Assembly (NCBI RefSeq): GCF_000372865.1 | Contig: NZ_KB889965.1 | Span: 4,299,786 to 4,363,785 of the forward strand | Reading direction: 5' to 3' | Origin: Methylosarcina fibrata AML-C10 | Lineage (GTDB): Bacteria; Pseudomonadota; Gammaproteobacteria; Methylococcales; Methylomonadaceae | DNA: 64,000 nucleotides | In this document: in pieces, positions 1 through 11,085 of the stretch | Position numbering within the stretch: the first letter of the stretch is position 1 | Layout: each line of letters opens with the position of its first letter | The notes under the pieces: model-generated | What the model was told of the DNA's origin: nothing | Database searches by the model: none | The model's input: the letters and a program-made list of their open reading frames with translations, nothing else | Made by a program: the position numbers and the translations under genes

Positions 1-140
1 CCGGGCTGATAATAATGTTTTTCCGACGGTTCGATCAGGCCGATGTCCATTTTCGAATCCTGCCTGAGCATGTTGTTGGCGACGGATACGCCGGCCGCGC
101 CGCCGCCGACGATTAAAACGGTATGGTGCTGCTGTGACAT
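1..140 (-). CDS. Sulfide:quinone oxidoreductase-like FAD flavoprotein, N-terminal part
   Basis: Only the first 46 codons lie in the window; the gene continues past base 1. The start is the ATG at 138-140 (complement). The protein begins with an FAD-binding Rossmann motif VGGGAAGVSVA at about residues 11-21 and then reads IEPSEKHYYQP. This N-terminus is typical of the sulfide:quinone oxidoreductase and flavocytochrome c group, where a YYQPG segment follows the first beta-alpha-beta unit. Members oxidise sulfide at the inner membrane and pass electrons to quinone. The next gene on the same strand is a persulfide dioxygenase-rhodanese fusion, which fits a sulfide detoxification pair. The catalytic cysteines lie outside the window, so the substrate is inferred. 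Confidence 0.7.
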   Translation of the reverse strand, partial: MSQQHHTVLIVGGGAAGVSVANNMLRQDSKMDIGLIEPSEKHYYQP

Positions 141-498
141 GAGTTCTCCTCAATAGTATGGAATGGCACTGCTGCCGATGGCGGCAATGCCGTTGTCGTT
201 CGTTATTATTCTTTTCAGTTGTTGGTCGAGAATGCGGAAATAGGGGACAAAAAACCTTTTCGGGTTAGGGTAAAAATAGAAAAAAGGCTTATTTTTTATC
301 CGGTTATCCGTCTCGGCTCAACGCTCCCTTATTACTTGAAACAAGGGATAAGTCAATAAAATTTATAATGCGAAGGCTCCGGGACAGAACGTTTGCCCCG
401 GCAGGCCGGCGTAATAGGCGAAGTTGTTCTTGCTCCGATCCAGACGGCGGCGTCCGTGCCGCCGTGCGTTCTAAAACGGGAACATTCTCTCGGCTGCC
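141..498. other. Intergenic region upstream of the sulfide oxidoreductase
   Basis: No credible gene is seen here. It should hold the promoter of the oxidoreductase that starts at 140 and the end of the dioxygenase transcript from 499. A GC-rich hairpin (GGCGGC, six-base loop, GCCGCC) sits at about 445-462, without a T-run. The stretch 240-380 is AT-rich, as expected for a promoter, but I cannot fix the boxes. Confidence 0.4.
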
Positions 499-1587
499 TC
501 AGGCACTTTTTTGCCAGGCTTCGTAGCCGCCGGCGATCGACAGCACGTTGTGATAGCCGAGGTTCTGCAGGGTTTGCGCGGCCAGCGCCGAGCGGCCGCC
601 GGTGCGGCAGTAAAGAACCACGGCTTTCGACTTGTCCGAAAGTTCCGGCACGTTGCCGATTTTGAATTCCAGAACGCCGCGTGGCAACGGCACGGCTTTG
701 TCGACGTGACCTGCGGCGTATTCGCTTTCCTCGCGCACGTCGACCACCGTCACGTGGCCTTCCTTGATAAGTTCTCTGGCACGGGCGGGCGAAATTTCGG
801 TGATGTGCTGTTTGGCTTCCGCCACCAGATCCTGCGCCGTGGTTTCGTGGCGCGCCGGACGGGTCGTTTCTCTCCGGACAATGGCGTCCTGCCGCTCGTT
901 TTCGTCGAGTCCGCAGTAACGGTTGGCCGGCACCGCTTCATCGATCAACCGGGGCCTCGGCAGATTCAGATTGTTCATGATATCAATGAACTGTTCGCGC
1001 GTTTTGCCTGCCAGACGGGGATTGGTGGTGCGCTCCTGCATGATGCTGCTGACCCAGTGTTGTTGATAGTCGTGGCCCGGATACACCAGGGTTTCGTCCG
1101 GCAGCGTGAACAGGCGCTGGGTGATGCAGTCGTACAGGGCACCGGGATCGCCGCTCTGAAAATCGGTCCGGCCGCAGCCGCCGATAAACAGGGAGTCGCC
1201 GGTAAACACCCGGTCGCGCCATAAAAAGGACACGCTGCCTTTAGTGTGTCCGGGCGTCGAGATGACTTTAATTTTCTCGCCGGCGCCGAATTCGAGCAGG
1301 TCGCCGTCCTGCAATTGCAGGCTTGCGCCTTCCGCGCCGCATAACTGGCTTACGCCGGTTTCCGAGCCCAGGCGCTGACGCAACAGGCCGCTCGCCGTGA
1401 TGTGGTCGGCATGCACGTGCGTTTCCAGAGAGTATTTCAACGTCAGGCCGTGCTCTTGCAGCAGGGCGATGTATTCGTCGATATGGGATTTGACCGGGTC
1501 GATCAGGACCGCTTCCTTGCCGGCCGGGTCGCCGATCAAATACGTGTAGGTCCAGGTTTCTGGGTCGAATAATTGCTTGAAAATCAT
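499..1587 (-). CDS. Persulfide dioxygenase-rhodanese fusion (MBL-fold metallohydrolase)
   Basis: This 362-residue protein has an N-terminal metallo-beta-lactamase domain with the metal-binding motif THVHADH at 56-62, a second motif STPGHTKGS and a YPGHDY motif. These are the signatures of ETHE1-type persulfide dioxygenases, non-haem iron enzymes that oxidise glutathione persulfide to sulfite. A C-terminal rhodanese domain carries the active-site loop CRTGGR at about 327-332, so the protein probably couples persulfide oxidation and sulfur transfer, as in natural PDO-rhodanese fusions. I chose the ATG at 1587 because GGAGAA lies just upstream; an upstream ATG at 1617 has no good ribosome site. 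With the sulfide oxidoreductase at 1-140 it forms a likely sulfide detoxification pair. Confidence 0.85.
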   Translation of the reverse strand: MIFKQLFDPETWTYTYLIGDPAGKEAVLIDPVKSHIDEYIALLQEHGLTLKYSLETHVHADHITASGLLRQRLGSETGVSQLCGAEGASLQLQDGDLLEFGAGEKIKVISTPGHTKGSVSFLWRDRVFTGDSLFIGGCGRTDFQSGDPGALYDCITQRLFTLPDETLVYPGHDYQQHWVSSIMQERTTNPRLAGKTREQFIDIMNNLNLPRPRLIDEAVPANRYCGLDENERQDAIVRRETTRPARHETTAQDLVAEAKQHITEISPARARELIKEGHVTVVDVREESEYAAGHVDKAVPLPRGVLEFKIGNVPELSDKSKAVVLYCRTGGRSALAAQTLQNLGYHNVLSIAGGYEAWQKSA

Positions 1588-1765
1588 TTTATTTCTCCGG
1601 TTGTTGTACGTTGGCATTATGGCGCGCGGAACGTGCGATTGTCATCTTCGATATGGATAAAGCAAAGGCCGTGCCAATAGAGCTTTATGCTGACGCTCTA
1701 TTGACTGCATTGGCTCGCAAGGAGTTCTGTTGAGAAGGATATATTTATGTTTCTTATTTCATAAT

Positions 1766-1809
1766 GTTTCAATGAAACAACAATAAGTTTCAATGAAACT
1801 TAATGAAAC
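1766..1809. promoter_or_regulatory. Tandem palindromic operator candidate upstream of the dioxygenase gene
   Basis: The 13-base near-palindrome GTTTCAATGAAAC occurs at 1766-1778 and again at 1787-1799, exactly 21 bases apart (two helical turns). A further half-site AATGAAAC follows at 1802-1809, about one turn on. Such phased inverted repeats usually bind a dimeric regulator on one DNA face. They lie about 180 bases upstream of the dioxygenase start. The regulator is unknown. Confidence 0.5.
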
Positions 1810-1853
1810 GATTTGGGGGACTCCGGTCGGATCACGTCGAGCCGTTCGAGCAG

Positions 1854-1877
1854 AAAAAAAACCGGCATTTGCCGGTT
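1854..1877 (-). terminator. Rho-independent terminator
   Basis: On the minus strand AACCGGC, a four-base loop and GCCGGTT are followed by a run of eight T. It would stop transcripts coming from the small gene at 2101-2364 and separates them from the dioxygenase promoter region. Nothing else convincing is seen between 1878 and 2100. Confidence 0.8.
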
Positions 1878-2100
1878 CCGCTTGAACAGCAAAGGCTGGC
1901 CGAACCGGGAGAAGTTCGTTAAATGAAGAGTTCGATATGACCCGCAATGAATGATTCCGTTCGTGGCGAGTCCCAGCCTTGTTGAAGGAGCATCTCAGGA
2001 TCGGTTCGCCAGGTATTTTTTCGGCTGTCCGGAATGTTGATCGGCTTTTCAGGGCTGCGAAAGGCCGAATCCTCAGCGGAACCGACCGATAGTGCTTTTT

Positions 2101-2364
2101 CTAGGGAATTTCTACGCCGCTAATCTCTCCTTTCTCGTCCAGCTTCAATTTTAACCGGCCGTAACACGATTTTTGATCGGCCTGGCAGCCGGAGCCTTCC
2201 ATCACGCTTTCCAGAAAAGTGACGTACATCAAGAGGCCGTCCGGTTGCGTCTCCAGAATTCCGTAGTGGATCGAATCGTTGATGATCCAGCCGTTCTGGC
2301 TGCAAAACGCGGCCAGTTCCCGGCAGTTTTGTAAGAATGTTACTATTGCTTCGTGCTGTGTCAT
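2101..2364 (-). CDS. Small hypothetical protein (87 residues)
   Basis: I do not recognise a family. The product is a soluble protein of 87 residues starting MTQHEAIVTFLQNCRELAAF, with a predicted helix first and then several strands containing two cysteines (GCQADQKSC). It has no signal peptide and no membrane segment. The ATG at 2364 is preceded by GGGA at a loose distance; an alternative start at 2427 would add 21 arginine-rich residues and has no ribosome site. A terminator at 1854-1877 lies downstream, so it is probably transcribed alone. It reads as a real gene because the ORF is compact and the sequence is not of the repetitive kind seen in antisense shadows, but its function is open. 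Confidence 0.55.
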   Translation of the reverse strand: MTQHEAIVTFLQNCRELAAFCSQNGWIINDSIHYGILETQPDGLLMYVTFLESVMEGSGCQADQKSCYGRLKLKLDEKGEISGVEIP

Positions 2365-2533
2365 AGGTTGCGTTCCCAAATTGATCTGTTTGTCGCGGAG
2401 CGGCGGGCATCGCCTCCGTTCAGTCATGGTGCATTCGTTTATTCATCGTTCGGCAAGAGCCGCGCGGCTCGGACCGATGCAATAGACTCTATCACATAAT
2501 AGTATCGATTCGAAACAAAAAATAACGATCGCT

Positions 2534-3877
2534 TTACTCTCTTCCGCTTCGTCTCGGGTCAAACGCCTCCTGTACGGCGTCGGCGAACAGGTTGGCGGCC
2601 AGAACCAGCGTGAACATGAACACGAAGGCGGCGGACAAGGACCACCATACGATCGGCTCCCGGGCCATTTCCAGACGCGCTCCGTTGATCATGTTGCCCC
2701 AACTGTAAGTGGTCGGATCGACCCCGATATTGATGTAGGACAAAACCGCTTCCGCCAGCACCAGCGAACTGAAATCCAGCACGACGGAGATCAGCACGAT
2801 GTGCATGACGTTGGGCAGGATATGGCGCAAAAGAATCATGCCCTGACCGACGCCCAGAGCCGTCGCGGCCTGCACGTATTCCATCTCCCTGAGCTTCAGG
2901 GTTTCCCCGCGAAGCAGCCGACACAGCCCGGTCCAACTGGTCACGCCGAGAATCAGGCACAGAAACAGCAGGCGCATGTCGGCGCGCACGACGACGCTGG
3001 TAAAGTCTTCTTCATGATTGGCCATGTACACCTGCACCATCAGAATCGAGGCCGCAATCAGCAGGACGCTGGGAATGGAATTGAGTGTGGTGTAAACGTA
3101 CTGAATCACGTCGTCGATCCAGCCCCGGAAATAACCGGCCAGGATGCCGAAAACGACGGCCAGAGGCAGCATGACCAGCGTGGTCAGTGTGCCGATCACG
3201 AGGCCGGTCCGGATGCTCTTGATCGATTGATAGAAAACGTCTTCGCCGACTTTATCCGTGCCCAGCACGTGATAATAGCCGGACAGATAACAGAGCATGT
3301 ATGAGAGGGATACCAGAATGAATACCGTGGCCCACACCGCCTTGGCGGTGGCGCCGGTGAGCGCGTTCCGGCAGCGCTCTTTCAGGATGGTCCACAGCAA
3401 GACCATGAAAAAAACAAAAAGGCTGGCGCCCTGGAAGAAACCGTACAGCGATTTTTGTAAGATGTCGGGCCATCGGTCGGTTTCGGGATTGGCCAGATGC
3501 CGGCCGCCGTATTGCAGCCTTGGATAATCCCAGCGGGTGCTGCCGTCCGCTTGAGTCGTCATTTCCTTGCTGTAAAGGGTAACGGCAAACGGCGCCGAAT
3601 AGGTTTTTTCCCCCTGTTGCCGAAGCGGAGTCGCCCAGTAATCCAGTAAACTGATGATGTCGTGGTCCACCCCGGTTTGGGGGCGAAAATGCACCGAATC
3701 CAAAAGGCCGATGACGACGAAGAATAAAAGTACGACCAGAGAAATCATGCCGGACCGACTGCCGGCGACTTTTTGCAAAGGCCGTCTGAACGGTTCGTGG
3801 CCGTGCAGGTAAACCGCCAGCCCGGTCAGGACGGCGATCAAGGCGAATATCAGGGAGTCGGTCCATAAAACGATCAT
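2534..3877 (-). CDS. Peptide-type ABC transporter permease (OppC/DppC family)
   Basis: The 447-residue membrane protein has a membrane segment at about 10-25, another at 44-62, a polar periplasmic-like stretch, and then a C-terminal permease core with five or six helices. The core contains the EAA-type loop (around YVQAATALGVGQGMILLRHILPN), the coupling helix of binding-protein-dependent inner-membrane permeases; the spacing matches the OppC/DppC/YejE group. It is longer than the usual 300 residues because of the N-terminal segment. No partner permease, ATPase or binding protein is next to it in either direction, so either it is an orphan or its partners lie elsewhere. The substrate cannot be told. 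The neighbours (PPi-phosphofructokinase and a small hypothetical protein) give no functional hint. Confidence 0.8.
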   Translation of the reverse strand: MIVLWTDSLIFALIAVLTGLAVYLHGHEPFRRPLQKVAGSRSGMISLVVLLFFVVIGLLDSVHFRPQTGVDHDIISLLDYWATPLRQQGEKTYSAPFAVTLYSKEMTTQADGSTRWDYPRLQYGGRHLANPETDRWPDILQKSLYGFFQGASLFVFFMVLLWTILKERCRNALTGATAKAVWATVFILVSLSYMLCYLSGYYHVLGTDKVGEDVFYQSIKSIRTGLVIGTLTTLVMLPLAVVFGILAGYFRGWIDDVIQYVYTTLNSIPSVLLIAASILMVQVYMANHEEDFTSVVVRADMRLLFLCLILGVTSWTGLCRLLRGETLKLREMEYVQAATALGVGQGMILLRHILPNVMHIVLISVVLDFSSLVLAEAVLSYINIGVDPTTYSWGNMINGARLEMAREPIVWWSLSAAFVFMFTLVLAANLFADAVQEAFDPRRSGRE

Positions 3878-6036: not shown

Positions 6037-8745
6037 ATGGTTGCCGCAGTTAAATACGACGTTTTCCTGAGCTGTTGCCGGCAGGATCATCCGCAAGTCA
6101 GCGCTCTGGCGGACAAGCTCAAAGCGCAAAACCTTCGGGTGTATTTCGAGCGGTGGCAGATGCCGGCGGGCGTGCCGTGGCCTCAGGAACTCGGCCGGAT
6201 TCTGGCTTCCTGCGCTTCCGTTGCGATTTGTCTCGGGCGGGGAGAGATGGATTCGTGGCAACAGCGGGAGGTTCATTTTGCGCTGGAAAGGAAAAAATCG
6301 GACGCCGATTTTCCGATCATTCCGGTGCTGTTGCCGGGCTCGCAGCCGGCGCTGAATCTGTTGGGCTTGAAGCTTTGGATCGATCTGCGGCAGGGGCTGG
6401 AGCAGTCCTTGCCGTTCACTCTGCTGGCGGCGGCCATTCGCCGCCGTCCTCTGGGCCATGATTTTCAGGCCCGGATTAGGGAAACCCTGGACGGTTTGAG
6501 CCCCTATAAAGGCCTGGCTTATTATCGGGAAGAAGACGCCGCCTTTTTTTACGGCCGGGAAGAGGCCGCCGCCAGACTCGTCGAACTCGTCCGGCGCCGC
6601 CATTGGACCGCGGTCGTCGGTAATTCCGGCAGCGGCAAATCTTCCCTGATCAGGGCCGGCTTGCTGCCAGCGCTGCGGCATGCGGTCAAAGAGCCTTGGG
6701 AAATCGTGATGCTGGTGCCGGGCGACAGGCCGCTGTTCAATTTGACCGCGGCGTTCATGCCGCTTCTTTATCCCGGCTTTGACGATGAAAAACGGGCCGT
6801 CAAGCTGAACGAACAACGAGAGCTTCTGGCCGGCCAGCCGGCCCAGCTTAAAAACTGGATCACGACGATCAGCCGGATTCAATCCTTTCCCTGCCGATTT
6901 TTACTGGTCGTGGACCCATGGGAAGAATTATACCGGTTGCCCCGACGCGAACACGGCGGGGAAAAGGAAACTTTGGCCTTTATCGATGCCTTGCTGGCGG
7001 CAACGGAGGCCAAAGTATTGTCGGTCGTATTGGCGGTCCGCGCCGATTCGACGGGGCAATTGCTCGGTTATCGGCCGTTGGCCGATCGCCTGCAGGACGG
7101 CTGGCTCAGTCTCGGACCGATGAGCGGCGCCGAATTGCGCCTAGCGGTCGAAAAGCCGGCCGAACGCGTGGGCGCCGATTTCGAGGACGGACTGGTGGCG
7201 CAATTACTGAACGATGCCGCCAGGGTTGAACCGGACAGCCTGCCTTTGCTGAGCTTTGTCCTGGCGCGGTTGTGGCGCGACCCGGAGCGCCGCGGCGGCA
7301 GTATGCGCCTTCAGAGTTATGCCGCTTTGCAGGGAATGGCGGGCGCTTTGCACCAGGCCGCCGAGGGAGCTTACCGTGTACTTTCCGGTCCCGACCAAGC
7401 AATAGCAAAGCAGGTAATGACGCAACTGGCGCAAAGCAGGCAGGGAATGGCCGACGCCGCCGGACGAAAAAAACTGTCCGAATTCGGCTCGGAGGCGGTG
7501 CCGGTCATTCGACAGTTGGCCGACGGCGGACTGCTGGCGATCGTCAGAGAATTCGAAGAAGCCGAGGAATCGGTCGAACCGGCTCATGAAGCGCTGATCC
7601 GGCAGTGGCGGCGGATCGGAAGCTGGCTGATCGAGGGCCGGCAATTCGCCGTCTGGCGCGAAAAACTCGGCTGCACCAGGGCGTCCGGGGAAATACTGAG
7701 CGGTTATGCTCTGGCCGAAGCCCGGCGCTGGCAGGACCTCAGAAAAAACGAGCTCGGTAACGAGGAACTGAAATTCATCGATCAAAGTTATCGGCAGAAG
7801 GTCGTCCGGCAGATCAAGCTGGGGACCGCGATAGGGCTTCCTTTCGGCCTGATCGCCTGGTTCGCGCTTTGGGTGGGCGGCGAAGAACTGTTGACGCCCA
7901 AACTGGGACTGTACGTCTTGCTGGCCGACGCCGGCATCACATCTTTTATCGAGCCCGACATGGTCGACATTCCGCCCGGTGAGGCATCGGAGCAAAAAGG
8001 AAATAGCCTGGCTTTTACGATGGGTCCCGGGGCTCATGAGAAAGACGCCGATAAAATCGAATTTCCGCCGCACCGGGTGACTTTAAGCAAGCCTTTCCGC
8101 ATGAGCCGTTACGAGATTACGTTCGATCAGTATCAGGTGTTCGCCTATTCGGTCGAAAAGGACGGAGGGTGCTCGAACAAGCACAAGGTGGAAACCGACA
8201 GGGTTCAAGATGAAAAATGGGGTCGCGGCCGCCGCCCCGCCATCAATGTCAGTTGGAAAGACGCACTCTGTTACGCCGAATGGCTGTCGAAAAAAACCGG
8301 ATCGGAAACGCCTTACCGCCTTCCGACCGAGGCCGAATGGGAATTCGCGGCGCGGGCCGGAACGGGGTCGGCCTATTGGTGGGGCGATACGATAGGGAAA
8401 CAAATGGCGGTCTGCGACGGCTGCGGAAGCGACTGGCAAGGCAAAAACGAACGCCGGCAGACCGCCGAAGTGGACGATCCCGCCTTCAAACCCAACGGCT
8501 GGGGACTTTATCATACCAGCGGCAATGTTTGGGAATGGGTGCAGGATTGCTGGCATGAAAATTACGAGGCGGCTCCTTCGGACGGTTCCGCCTGGGATGG
8601 GCGGAATAACGGCAATTGCGGCCGGCGCGTCTTGCGCGGGGGCTCCTGGGCCGATACGCCGATAGGGCTACGCTCGGCCTACCGTTACAAGCTTAATGCC
8701 GATTACCGCTATTACAACATCGGCTTTCGTCTCGCTCAGGACTGA
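6037..8745 (+). CDS. TIR-STAND NTPase-FGE-like multidomain protein
   Basis: This 902-residue protein joins four modules. Residues 6-135 form a TIR domain (YDVFLSCCRQD at the first strand; WQQRE with a candidate catalytic Glu78, the position used by NAD-cleaving bacterial TIRs). Residues about 155-590 form a STAND-type NTPase (nSTAND1-like), with FFYGREE before it, Walker A GNSGSGKS at 195-202, Walker B FLLVVDPWEE at 288-297, and a PAHEALIRQW segment at about 515-524. A hydrophobic segment lies at about 594-613. Residues 641-900 form an FGE/SUMF1-like domain (PTEAEWEFAARAG; GNVWEWVQD; VLRGGSW; IGFRLA). The cysteines that make true formylglycine-generating enzymes active are missing near GGSW, so this domain more likely binds a ligand. 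By analogy with known TIR-STAND proteins it may be an anti-phage or stress sensor whose TIR depletes NAD; this is inference. It stands alone, without defence-gene neighbours. Confidence 0.85.
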   Translation: MVAAVKYDVFLSCCRQDHPQVSALADKLKAQNLRVYFERWQMPAGVPWPQELGRILASCASVAICLGRGEMDSWQQREVHFALERKKSDADFPIIPVLLPGSQPALNLLGLKLWIDLRQGLEQSLPFTLLAAAIRRRPLGHDFQARIRETLDGLSPYKGLAYYREEDAAFFYGREEAAARLVELVRRRHWTAVVGNSGSGKSSLIRAGLLPALRHAVKEPWEIVMLVPGDRPLFNLTAAFMPLLYPGFDDEKRAVKLNEQRELLAGQPAQLKNWITTISRIQSFPCRFLLVVDPWEELYRLPRREHGGEKETLAFIDALLAATEAKVLSVVLAVRADSTGQLLGYRPLADRLQDGWLSLGPMSGAELRLAVEKPAERVGADFEDGLVAQLLNDAARVEPDSLPLLSFVLARLWRDPERRGGSMRLQSYAALQGMAGALHQAAEGAYRVLSGPDQAIAKQVMTQLAQSRQGMADAAGRKKLSEFGSEAVPVIRQLADGGLLAIVREFEEAEESVEPAHEALIRQWRRIGSWLIEGRQFAVWREKLGCTRASGEILSGYALAEARRWQDLRKNELGNEELKFIDQSYRQKVVRQIKLGTAIGLPFGLIAWFALWVGGEELLTPKLGLYVLLADAGITSFIEPDMVDIPPGEASEQKGNSLAFTMGPGAHEKDADKIEFPPHRVTLSKPFRMSRYEITFDQYQVFAYSVEKDGGCSNKHKVETDRVQDEKWGRGRRPAINVSWKDALCYAEWLSKKTGSETPYRLPTEAEWEFAARAGTGSAYWWGDTIGKQMAVCDGCGSDWQGKNERRQTAEVDDPAFKPNGWGLYHTSGNVWEWVQDCWHENYEAAPSDGSAWDGRNNGNCGRRVLRGGSWADTPIGLRSAYRYKLNADYRYYNIGFRLAQD

Positions 8746-10231: not shown

Positions 10232-10350
10232 CTGAGCAATCCGATAGACGTTCCAATTGAGAAACCGCCTGACGGCATTATAGGTGTCCCGGGCAATGCT
10301 GAAAACCTTTGTCTCGGTTTGCCTGGCATGTTGCCATAAAAATGGAAGGA
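10232..10350. repeat. Direct repeat copy A flanking the Uma2 gene
   Basis: The sequence from GAGCAATCCGATAGACGTTC to ATGGAAGGA is a diverged copy of 11214-11344 in the same orientation. In the 56-base core only about six bases differ; the distal half is less conserved and has small insertions. Reading frames drawn through both copies give similar peptides on the minus strand, so such ORFs are repeat artefacts. The rest of 10013-10506 shows no gene. Confidence 0.8.
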
Positions 10351-10506
10351 ACAAAGTCCGAACGGTCGGAGTGGCGACTCTCGATAGAGCGTTTTCCCAT
10401 CACTACACACAGCTCTGCTCTCGATCAAAAGACGCTTGATGGCTTTTCCAATGCAATCGAACGCGTTAAGATGGGCCTACCTAACGAACCCGCTTCGAGA
10501 CAAATC

Positions 10507-11085
10507 ATGACCAAACCAGCTGAGCGCTACGCTACTTACGAAGATTTGCTTGATCTGCCCGAGCACGTGATCGGTGAAATCATTCACGGTCAACTGATCA
10601 CCCAGCCCCGGCCGGCGCCGAGACACGCATTGGCCAGTTCCGGCATCGGCATGAAATTCGGCGATCCATATCAATTCGGCCGCGGCGGCCCCGGCGGCTG
10701 GTGGATTCTGGACGAGCCGGAACTGCATTTGGGGCCGAACGTCCTGGTTCCCGACCTGGCCGGATGGCGCCGGGAACGCTTGCCGACGTTGCCCGACGAA
10801 GCATTTTTCAGTCTCGCGCCGGACTGGATCTGCGAAGTATTATCGCCCGGCACCGCCCGCACCGACCGTGCGGTCAAAATGCCGCTTTACGCCGCCACGC
10901 AGGTCAACTGGCTGTGGCTGATCGACCCCGATCTTCGTACTCTGGAAGTTTACTCCTTGTCGGAGAGTCACTGGCTGCTCGAAGCCACCTATAAAGACGA
11001 CGACCCAGTCCGTGCGGCGCCGTTCGCGGAAGTCATGTTGCGGCTGGATGACTTGTGGGTGCCGCAGGCGCCGGAAGGGACGTGA
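10507..11085 (+). CDS. Uma2 family (DUF820) endonuclease-like protein
   Basis: The 192-residue protein matches the Uma2/DUF820 family of PD-(D/E)XK-fold proteins. It begins with the typical YATYEDLLDLPEHVIGEIIHG segment, then has VPDLAGWR (Asp83 of the PD motif) and WICEVLSPGT with Glu110, followed by the conserved Asp and Lys of the DRAVKMPLYA segment and a WLIDPDLRTLEVY strand. Family members are common in cyanobacteria and in genomes rich in mobile DNA; a nuclease activity is assumed from the fold and the cellular role is unknown. I placed the start at the ATG at 10507, where the family begins; an upstream ATG at 10309 lies inside the repeat. The gene is bracketed by two copies of a direct repeat, which hints that it moved as a cassette. 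Confidence 0.85.
   Translation: MTKPAERYATYEDLLDLPEHVIGEIIHGQLITQPRPAPRHALASSGIGMKFGDPYQFGRGGPGGWWILDEPELHLGPNVLVPDLAGWRRERLPTLPDEAFFSLAPDWICEVLSPGTARTDRAVKMPLYAATQVNWLWLIDPDLRTLEVYSLSESHWLLEATYKDDDPVRAAPFAEVMLRLDDLWVPQAPEGT

Follow-up and report, generated by a model that had tools for sequence, protein, structure and literature searches.

A solitary TIR-nSTAND1-FGE gene of Methylosarcina fibrata encodes a likely immune-type receptor with a candidate membrane helix

Introduction

What kind of protein is encoded by a lone gene that joins a TIR domain, a STAND switch, a hydrophobic segment and an FGE-like domain, and could it act in defence? The question arose from a first-pass annotation of 64,000 nucleotides of the Methylosarcina fibrata AML-C10 genome (hereafter, the window), which had proposed such a protein as a candidate defence or signalling system. 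Related layouts are in print. The STAND-FGS section of Kaur et al. (2021, eLife, PMC8195603) lists TIR among the N-terminal effectors of these proteins, gives nSTAND1, NACHT and MNS as the STAND types that precede the C-terminal FGS domain, proposes that they sense invaders and trigger cell death, and describes frequent DGR association as well as several copies per organism. Dore et al. (2024, PMC10907252), in the portions cited here, describe DGR targets in which nSTAND1 or NACHT is combined with a C-terminal FGE/CLec domain, some with TIR and some predicted to be periplasmic, and state that the STAND-associated CLec domains are not experimentally characterised. Again in the portions cited, FGS and TIR occur in ternary systems (PMC7159879, 2020) and TIR NADase activity is treated as part of abortive infection (PMC12847820). 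Our literature search, with most subscription papers outside its reach, recognised no experimentally tested TIR-STAND-FGE protein.

Results

Domain architecture

The gene is a single frame with an ATG start codon, encoding a protein of 902 aa. Pfam placed TIR_2 at residues 9-120 (E 5.5e-20), nSTAND1 (PF20703) at 156-544 (E 3e-92) and FGE-sulfatase (PF03781) at 640-900 (E 2.5e-53), in that order. All three calls exceed the curated cut-offs and, judged by these profiles, their occurrence within one frame is not attributable to chance. The features are as follows (window coordinates).

6037..8745, + strand: whole gene, TIR-nSTAND1-membrane helix-FGE-like protein, 902 aa (ORF, Pfam)
6061..6396, + strand: TIR domain, aa 9-120 (Pfam TIR_2; model similar to SPARTA TIR-APAZ, SARM1 and AbTir)
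6268..6270, + strand: Glu78 codon, candidate catalytic residue (invariant 12/12; AbTir profile alignment)
6502..7668, + strand: nSTAND1 NTPase, aa 156-544 (Pfam)
6619..6642, + strand: Walker A GNSGSGKS, aa 195-202 (sequence; K201 nearly invariant)
6898..6927, + strand: Walker B and following acidic residues FLLVVDPWEE, aa 288-297 (sequence, alignment)
7819..7875, + strand: hydrophobic membrane-helix candidate, aa 595-613 (hydropathy, homologue linkers, AlphaFold2)
7954..8736, + strand: FGE-sulfatase-like C-type-lectin-fold domain, aa 640-900, catalytic cysteines absent (Pfam, alignment, model)
8641..8736, + strand: segment equivalent to the variable region of FGE relatives that DGRs diversify (genome with neither template nor DGR reverse transcriptase)

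The multi-domain reading of the first-pass annotation (TIR, STAND, FGE-like) was thus borne out by Pfam, alignment and structure tools, and we hold the domains and motifs as assigned with high confidence. Structure prediction, a check which that annotation had named, yielded models supporting the three folds and the linker helix. The full-length AlphaFold2 model had a mean pLDDT of 79.9 and a pTM of 0.62, with the FGE part at low confidence in places. A PDB sequence search using the TIR and STAND part as a single query gave no match, and PADLOC returned weak, partial matches to mad3 and PDC-S66 only, with no curated Avs model among them, a result that is compatible with an Avs-like function all the same.

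TIR domain and nSTAND1 switch

The proposal of an NAD-cleaving type of TIR domain with Glu78 as candidate catalytic residue gained support from the TIR_2 call, from conservation and from alignment to AbTir. Residue 78 is a Glu within the motif DSWQQRE, and S12, D17, W74 and E78 are invariant across all 12 aligned TIR domains. The profile built from these 12 rows matched AbTir (7uxr, E 3.9e-11), the TIR protein 3h16, TIR-STING, TcpB and SARM1 in the PDB. In the printed profile alignments, its Trp74/Glu78 W-x-x-x-E overlies the W-x-x-x-E of AbTir, whose aligned Glu we take to be the catalytic one. A model of residues 1-150 (mean pLDDT 84.9) was closest to SPARTA TIR-APAZ (VIA Z 16.1, rmsd 2.6, 131 aligned residues), followed by SARM1 (Z 15.7) and AbTir (Z 14.5). 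As read from sequence and model, the protein has a TIR fold and the conserved W-x-x-x-E Glu of TIR NADases, and is a putative NADase.

The STAND switch, for which intact Walker motifs had been claimed, was likewise upheld by the nSTAND1 call and the presence of GNSGSGKS and LLVVDPWEE. The Walker A lysine K201 is near-invariant in an alignment of 17 homologues, and around D293 the acidic motif is complete. Foldseek matched the full-length model to PvdO, the TIR-NLR RPP1 (E 3.5e-10), a plant NLR resistosome, CED-4 and Apaf-1. Since Orc1/Cdc6 and other AAA+ proteins share this list, the matches support a STAND/AAA fold and not one particular family.

Linker helix and topology

No 19-residue stretch of the protein is more hydrophobic than residues 595-613, whose Kyte-Doolittle mean is a moderate 1.79 and which fall inside an AlphaFold2 helix spanning 575-615. 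Four Lys/Arg lie in the 15 residues before this stretch and one after it, consistent with the hydrophobic segment with a basic cytoplasmic side noted in the first pass. A stretch of 19 residues with a mean of at least 1.4 at the same linker position is present in 13 of the 17 aligned homologue rows, including relatives with other sensors, and the mean reaches 2.4-2.7 in some. The rows that do not have it are L046 (0.54), L052, and L041 and L043, in which there is no such region at all.

The TIR domain starts so early, inside the first ten residues, that there is no signal peptide ahead of it, and a helix that spans the membrane would thus place the FGE-like domain in the periplasm. A cytoplasmic TIR/STAND part with a periplasmic FGE-like domain is therefore the likely topology, provided that the segment spans. 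This was the arrangement first suggested, and it stands in part: Lys/Arg are more numerous on the N-terminal side in 9 of the 13 helix-bearing rows, whereas they are equal in 3 and reversed in one. The reversed row is L094, the closest relative of the same architecture, where Lys/Arg are more numerous after the helix than before. Furthermore, L046 shares the architecture and does not have the helix, so a membrane position is not universal.

FGE-like domain

The expectation of an FGE-like C-terminal domain was confirmed by PF03781 and by structural matches to PvdO and FGE. Among solved structures, PvdO is its best relative (5hha; phmmer E 2.2e-36, VIA Z 23.3); next come formylglycine-generating enzymes and TvpA, a DGR variable protein (2y3c, Z 20.7). 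The NCBIfam model for PvdO (dihydropyoverdine dehydrogenase) scored 144.9 bits, far under its cut-off of 500. In alignments to 2q17 and 6muj, the two cysteines that follow GGSY in the Streptomyces coelicolor FGE, which we take to be the catalytic pair, have no counterpart in the domain. As the pair is missing, the domain is most likely a binding fold.

Relatives and sensor variety

At E ≤ 1e-20, 35 of 101 related genomes (own included) contained a match, in most cases to the FGE part. At E ≤ 1e-90 there was none in 368 other genomes sampled from the class, leaving the own genome alone among 369. The scan of genome contigs for relatives kept 79 loci. Full-length co-linear relatives are L094, from a Methylococcales MAG (43% over residues 6-902), and L096 (32%). 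L094 carries an in-frame TGA in its FGE domain (position ~12409), the remaining frame being open. After removal of duplicate loci, 139 FGE-containing ORFs were counted, among them 8 (the 902-aa gene included) with TIR and STAND, 7 with STAND only and 10 with TIR only. Pfam confirmed TIR-nSTAND1-FGE in L046, L049, L054 and L096. In L042, a STAND-helix-FGE frame (42-3368) is followed in tandem by a TIR-FGE gene.

In the TIR-nSTAND1 tree, the 902-aa protein groups with L094, L043, L046 and L041 (99/97), with L044 next (94/97). By Pfam and hydropathy, L044 is a TIR-nSTAND1-helix chassis with WD40 repeats, and L041 is TIR-nSTAND1 with the sensor absent. Since members of this group carry FGE, WD40 or no sensor, they appear to represent one chassis with different sensors. 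On these comparisons the C-terminus behaves as an exchangeable sensor on a TIR-nSTAND1-helix chassis, the WD40-for-FGE difference being plain from the architecture. The careful FGE tree (42 rows chosen from 133; the 133-row tree was a quick search) pairs the FGE domain of the 902-aa protein with that of L045 (100/98) and that of L094 with L042 (98/96). In both FGE trees, rows L065_17 and L065_2826 duplicate the DNA of L057's DGR copies. Exchange between FGE types is suggested by these pairings, but AU tests are compatible with a common history: one FGE clade of the 902-aa protein, L094 and L042 was not rejected (p = 0.318), nor was a STAND clade of the 902-aa protein and L045 (p = 0.439).

Genomic neighbourhood

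The first-pass view of a solitary gene held. It is present in a single copy in the genome, and its neighbours are the housekeeping genes for PPi-phosphofructokinase, OmpA-like, TIGR04073, Uma2, HflC and HflK proteins. The Uma2-family gene (10309-11085) matches the PADLOC candidate PDC-S03 (E 1.1e-18). Apart from this Uma2/PDC-S03 gene, no recognised defence gene lies beside the TIR-nSTAND1-FGE gene, and there is no defence island in the window. The first pass had named, as a check, a search for the same architecture next to defence genes. Among relatives of this architecture with scanned neighbours, the one such case was L046, which has a ParB-like gene ~2.7 kb away and a C5 DNA methylase (DNA methyltransferase) nearby. 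Transposase genes flank L044, and the surroundings of L094 and L041 are also housekeeping. A defence role for the 902-aa protein would be one assigned by analogy with its family.

None of the 11 other genomes matching the ompA-TIGR04073 pair has a TIR gene beside it, and the TIR-nSTAND1-FGE gene is, by this comparison of genomes, accessory. In the 9 of those 11 that were fetched with more flank, no phosphofructokinase gene lies near the pair, so the comparison yields no clean empty site. The G+C content of the gene is 0.598 (neighbours, 0.54-0.60) and its GC3 is 0.69, against 0.76-0.78 in two neighbours, and the compositional case for recent transfer is weak.

Elsewhere in the same genome (contig G000:C1, ~53.5-59.4 kb, outside the window; L199, 11021-16922), a four-gene locus encodes a TPR-S protein, to which PADLOC gives a weak TIR hit, a DUF4231/SLATT 2TM protein, a SIR2-like plus TIR protein with a sub-threshold SIR2 match, and a second nSTAND1 protein. 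It has the look of a conflict system made up of several genes. A single further FGE-fold gene was found in the genome, a DinB plus FGE fusion (L199, 3872-5107) that we take to be EgtB-like, the adjoining frame presumably being EgtD.

DGR association and codon trace

No DGR reverse transcriptase was found in the genome (99.99% complete). Its single RVT_1 hit is a maturase of the group II intron type (TIGR04416, 391 bits against a cut-off of 300). Neither a repeat nor a template of the segment 8641-8736 was found in the genome, and present DGR targeting of the gene was therefore rejected.

Three related genomes (G087, G069 and G025) have FGE genes adjoined by reverse transcriptases that exceed the Pfam cut-off. 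At one G087 locus, the two copies differ from the template at 1 and 2 of 68 non-A positions and at 20 and 14 of 32 A positions. As mismatches fall almost only at template A, the alignments identify the FGE genes of these genomes as true DGR targets. Template-like repeats were present in 17 of 108 scanned loci, which together contain 149 FGE copies; 13 of the 17 are left once duplicate loci are removed, and no FGE ORF of these 13 had a TIR or STAND match. In one DGR target, L081 (4476-6236), a caspase domain is fused to FGE.

We further compared codon endings (C/T) at the AAC columns of one G087 template, scoring codons of degenerate amino acids with Ser excluded and leaving out 54 hits (motif missing, other length, or duplication). 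C/T endings made up 43/46 in copies near a template (1017/1762 in the upstream part of the same domains), 26/29 in TIR-FGE copies with no nearby template (upstream 407/801, p = 3e-5), 137/174 in other copies (upstream 2574/5188, p = 9e-15) and 16/21 in STAND-FGE copies (upstream 537/898, p = 0.18). These p-values ignore relatedness among copies that are related, and one template was used. The pattern suggests, as a lead, that many FGE copies with no local template are or were diversified, perhaps via a distant template. The template-Asn codon endings of TIR-FGE genes in L097, L099, L100, L052, L153 and others are suggestive of past or remote DGR mutagenesis, with no template nearby. In the 902-aa gene, 2/4 codons end in C/T, and with only four informative codons the test is powerless here. 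Two of its template-Asn columns hold ACG and GGG, which are not obtainable by adenine mutagenesis of AAC alone.

Discussion

Our preferred reading, to which we give a probability of roughly 0.55, is a one-protein analogue of a TIR-NLR at the inner membrane. The TIR and nSTAND1 domains would lie in the cytoplasm, one helix would cross the inner membrane and the FGE-like lectin fold would face the periplasm, where it may bind a protein or glycan ligand, perhaps from an incoming phage or a non-kin cell. Binding would cause nucleotide exchange and oligomerisation of the STAND part, bringing the TIR domains together, and Glu78 would then cleave NAD+ (or yield a cyclic ADP-ribose signal) such that growth stops or the cell dies. 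Sequence and models show the domains, the motifs, the hydrophobic stretch and the absence of the FGE cysteines; topology, ligand, oligomerisation, NADase activity and defence are all properties that we infer for this protein.

The same TIR-STAND switch may instead be fully cytoplasmic, the helix being buried or peripheral and the FGE-like domain sensing a phage product inside the cell, in the manner of characterised Avs and TIR systems. This further variant, TIR-NLR-like in action with no membrane topology, is tenable as a tentative alternative: L046 has all three domains and no hydrophobic linker, and CLec targets are predicted to be cytoplasmic as well as periplasmic in the portions cited of Dore et al. 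(2024, PMC10907252). It sits poorly with the retention of the linker stretch in 13 of 17 rows across different sensors and with the strongly hydrophobic examples among them.

A regulatory or developmental receptor (stress, cell envelope, kin recognition), in which the TIR product is a messenger and the function is not antiviral, seems unlikely to us. The housekeeping surroundings of the gene, L094 and L041 are in keeping with it, as is the fact that neither PvdO nor GldK, the closest of the named FGE-like families, is an immune protein, and a kin-recognition role is discussed in the cited portions of Dore et al. (PMC10907252). Against this stand the patchy presence across the class, the persistence of the ompA-TIGR04073 neighbours in 11 relatives with no TIR gene beside them, and the sensor variety of the chassis clade. 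That the FGE-like domain is catalytically active, as a formylglycine-generating enzyme or in the manner of an oxidase, and joined to a signalling module is very improbable: the FGE-sulfatase fold exceeds its Pfam cut-off and the PvdO model does match, though far under threshold, but both active-site cysteines of the S. coelicolor FGE are without counterpart and the segment 8641-8736 is the diversified surface in DGR relatives.

The protein is a likely immune-type receptor that combines an NAD-destroying domain and a switch with an anchor in the membrane and a sensor of lectin fold. Its TIR-nSTAND1-FGE layout is already in print, and it is a well-formed further example and not a new kind. It resembles the STAND-FGS proteins of PMC8195603 in its nSTAND1 and C-terminal FGE domains, with TIR_2 as the N-terminal effector, and differs from those described in that section in being a single-copy gene in a genome that has no DGR reverse transcriptase; the section contains no discussion of a membrane helix. 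Likewise, in contrast to the targets described in the cited portions of PMC10907252, it has no DGR and no template repeat, and is a single target. With TIR-NLRs (RPP1, RUN1) and TIR NADases (SPARTA, AbTir, SpbK) it shares the TIR fold, the conserved Glu and a STAND-like switch, whereas its sensor is an FGE/lectin fold and not an LRR, Argonaute or YonE-binding domain, and a membrane helix lies between switch and sensor. PvdO of Pseudomonas, which the C-terminal domain matches best in both structure and sequence, is stand-alone, unlike the domain here, which is fused to TIR-STAND. Within the STAND-FGS kind, we judge the protein notable as solitary, DGR-free and probably membrane-spanning.

A more speculative history, which we consider improbable, would make the protein a transmembrane TIR-NLR whose periplasmic sensor descended from a DGR-diversified lectin fold and was fixed after loss of the retroelement. 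An anticipatory, hypervariable receptor would thereby have become an inherited one of single specificity that kills by NAD loss on outside contact.

If the proposed mechanism works, one bacterial polypeptide would hold a complete receptor-to-executioner pathway across a membrane, and outside sensing by a TIR-NLR could be tested directly in E. coli. Being DGR-free within an often DGR-diversified sensor family, the protein would also allow a fixed sensor to be studied free of retroelement noise, and lets one ask whether such receptors gain and lose hypermutation.
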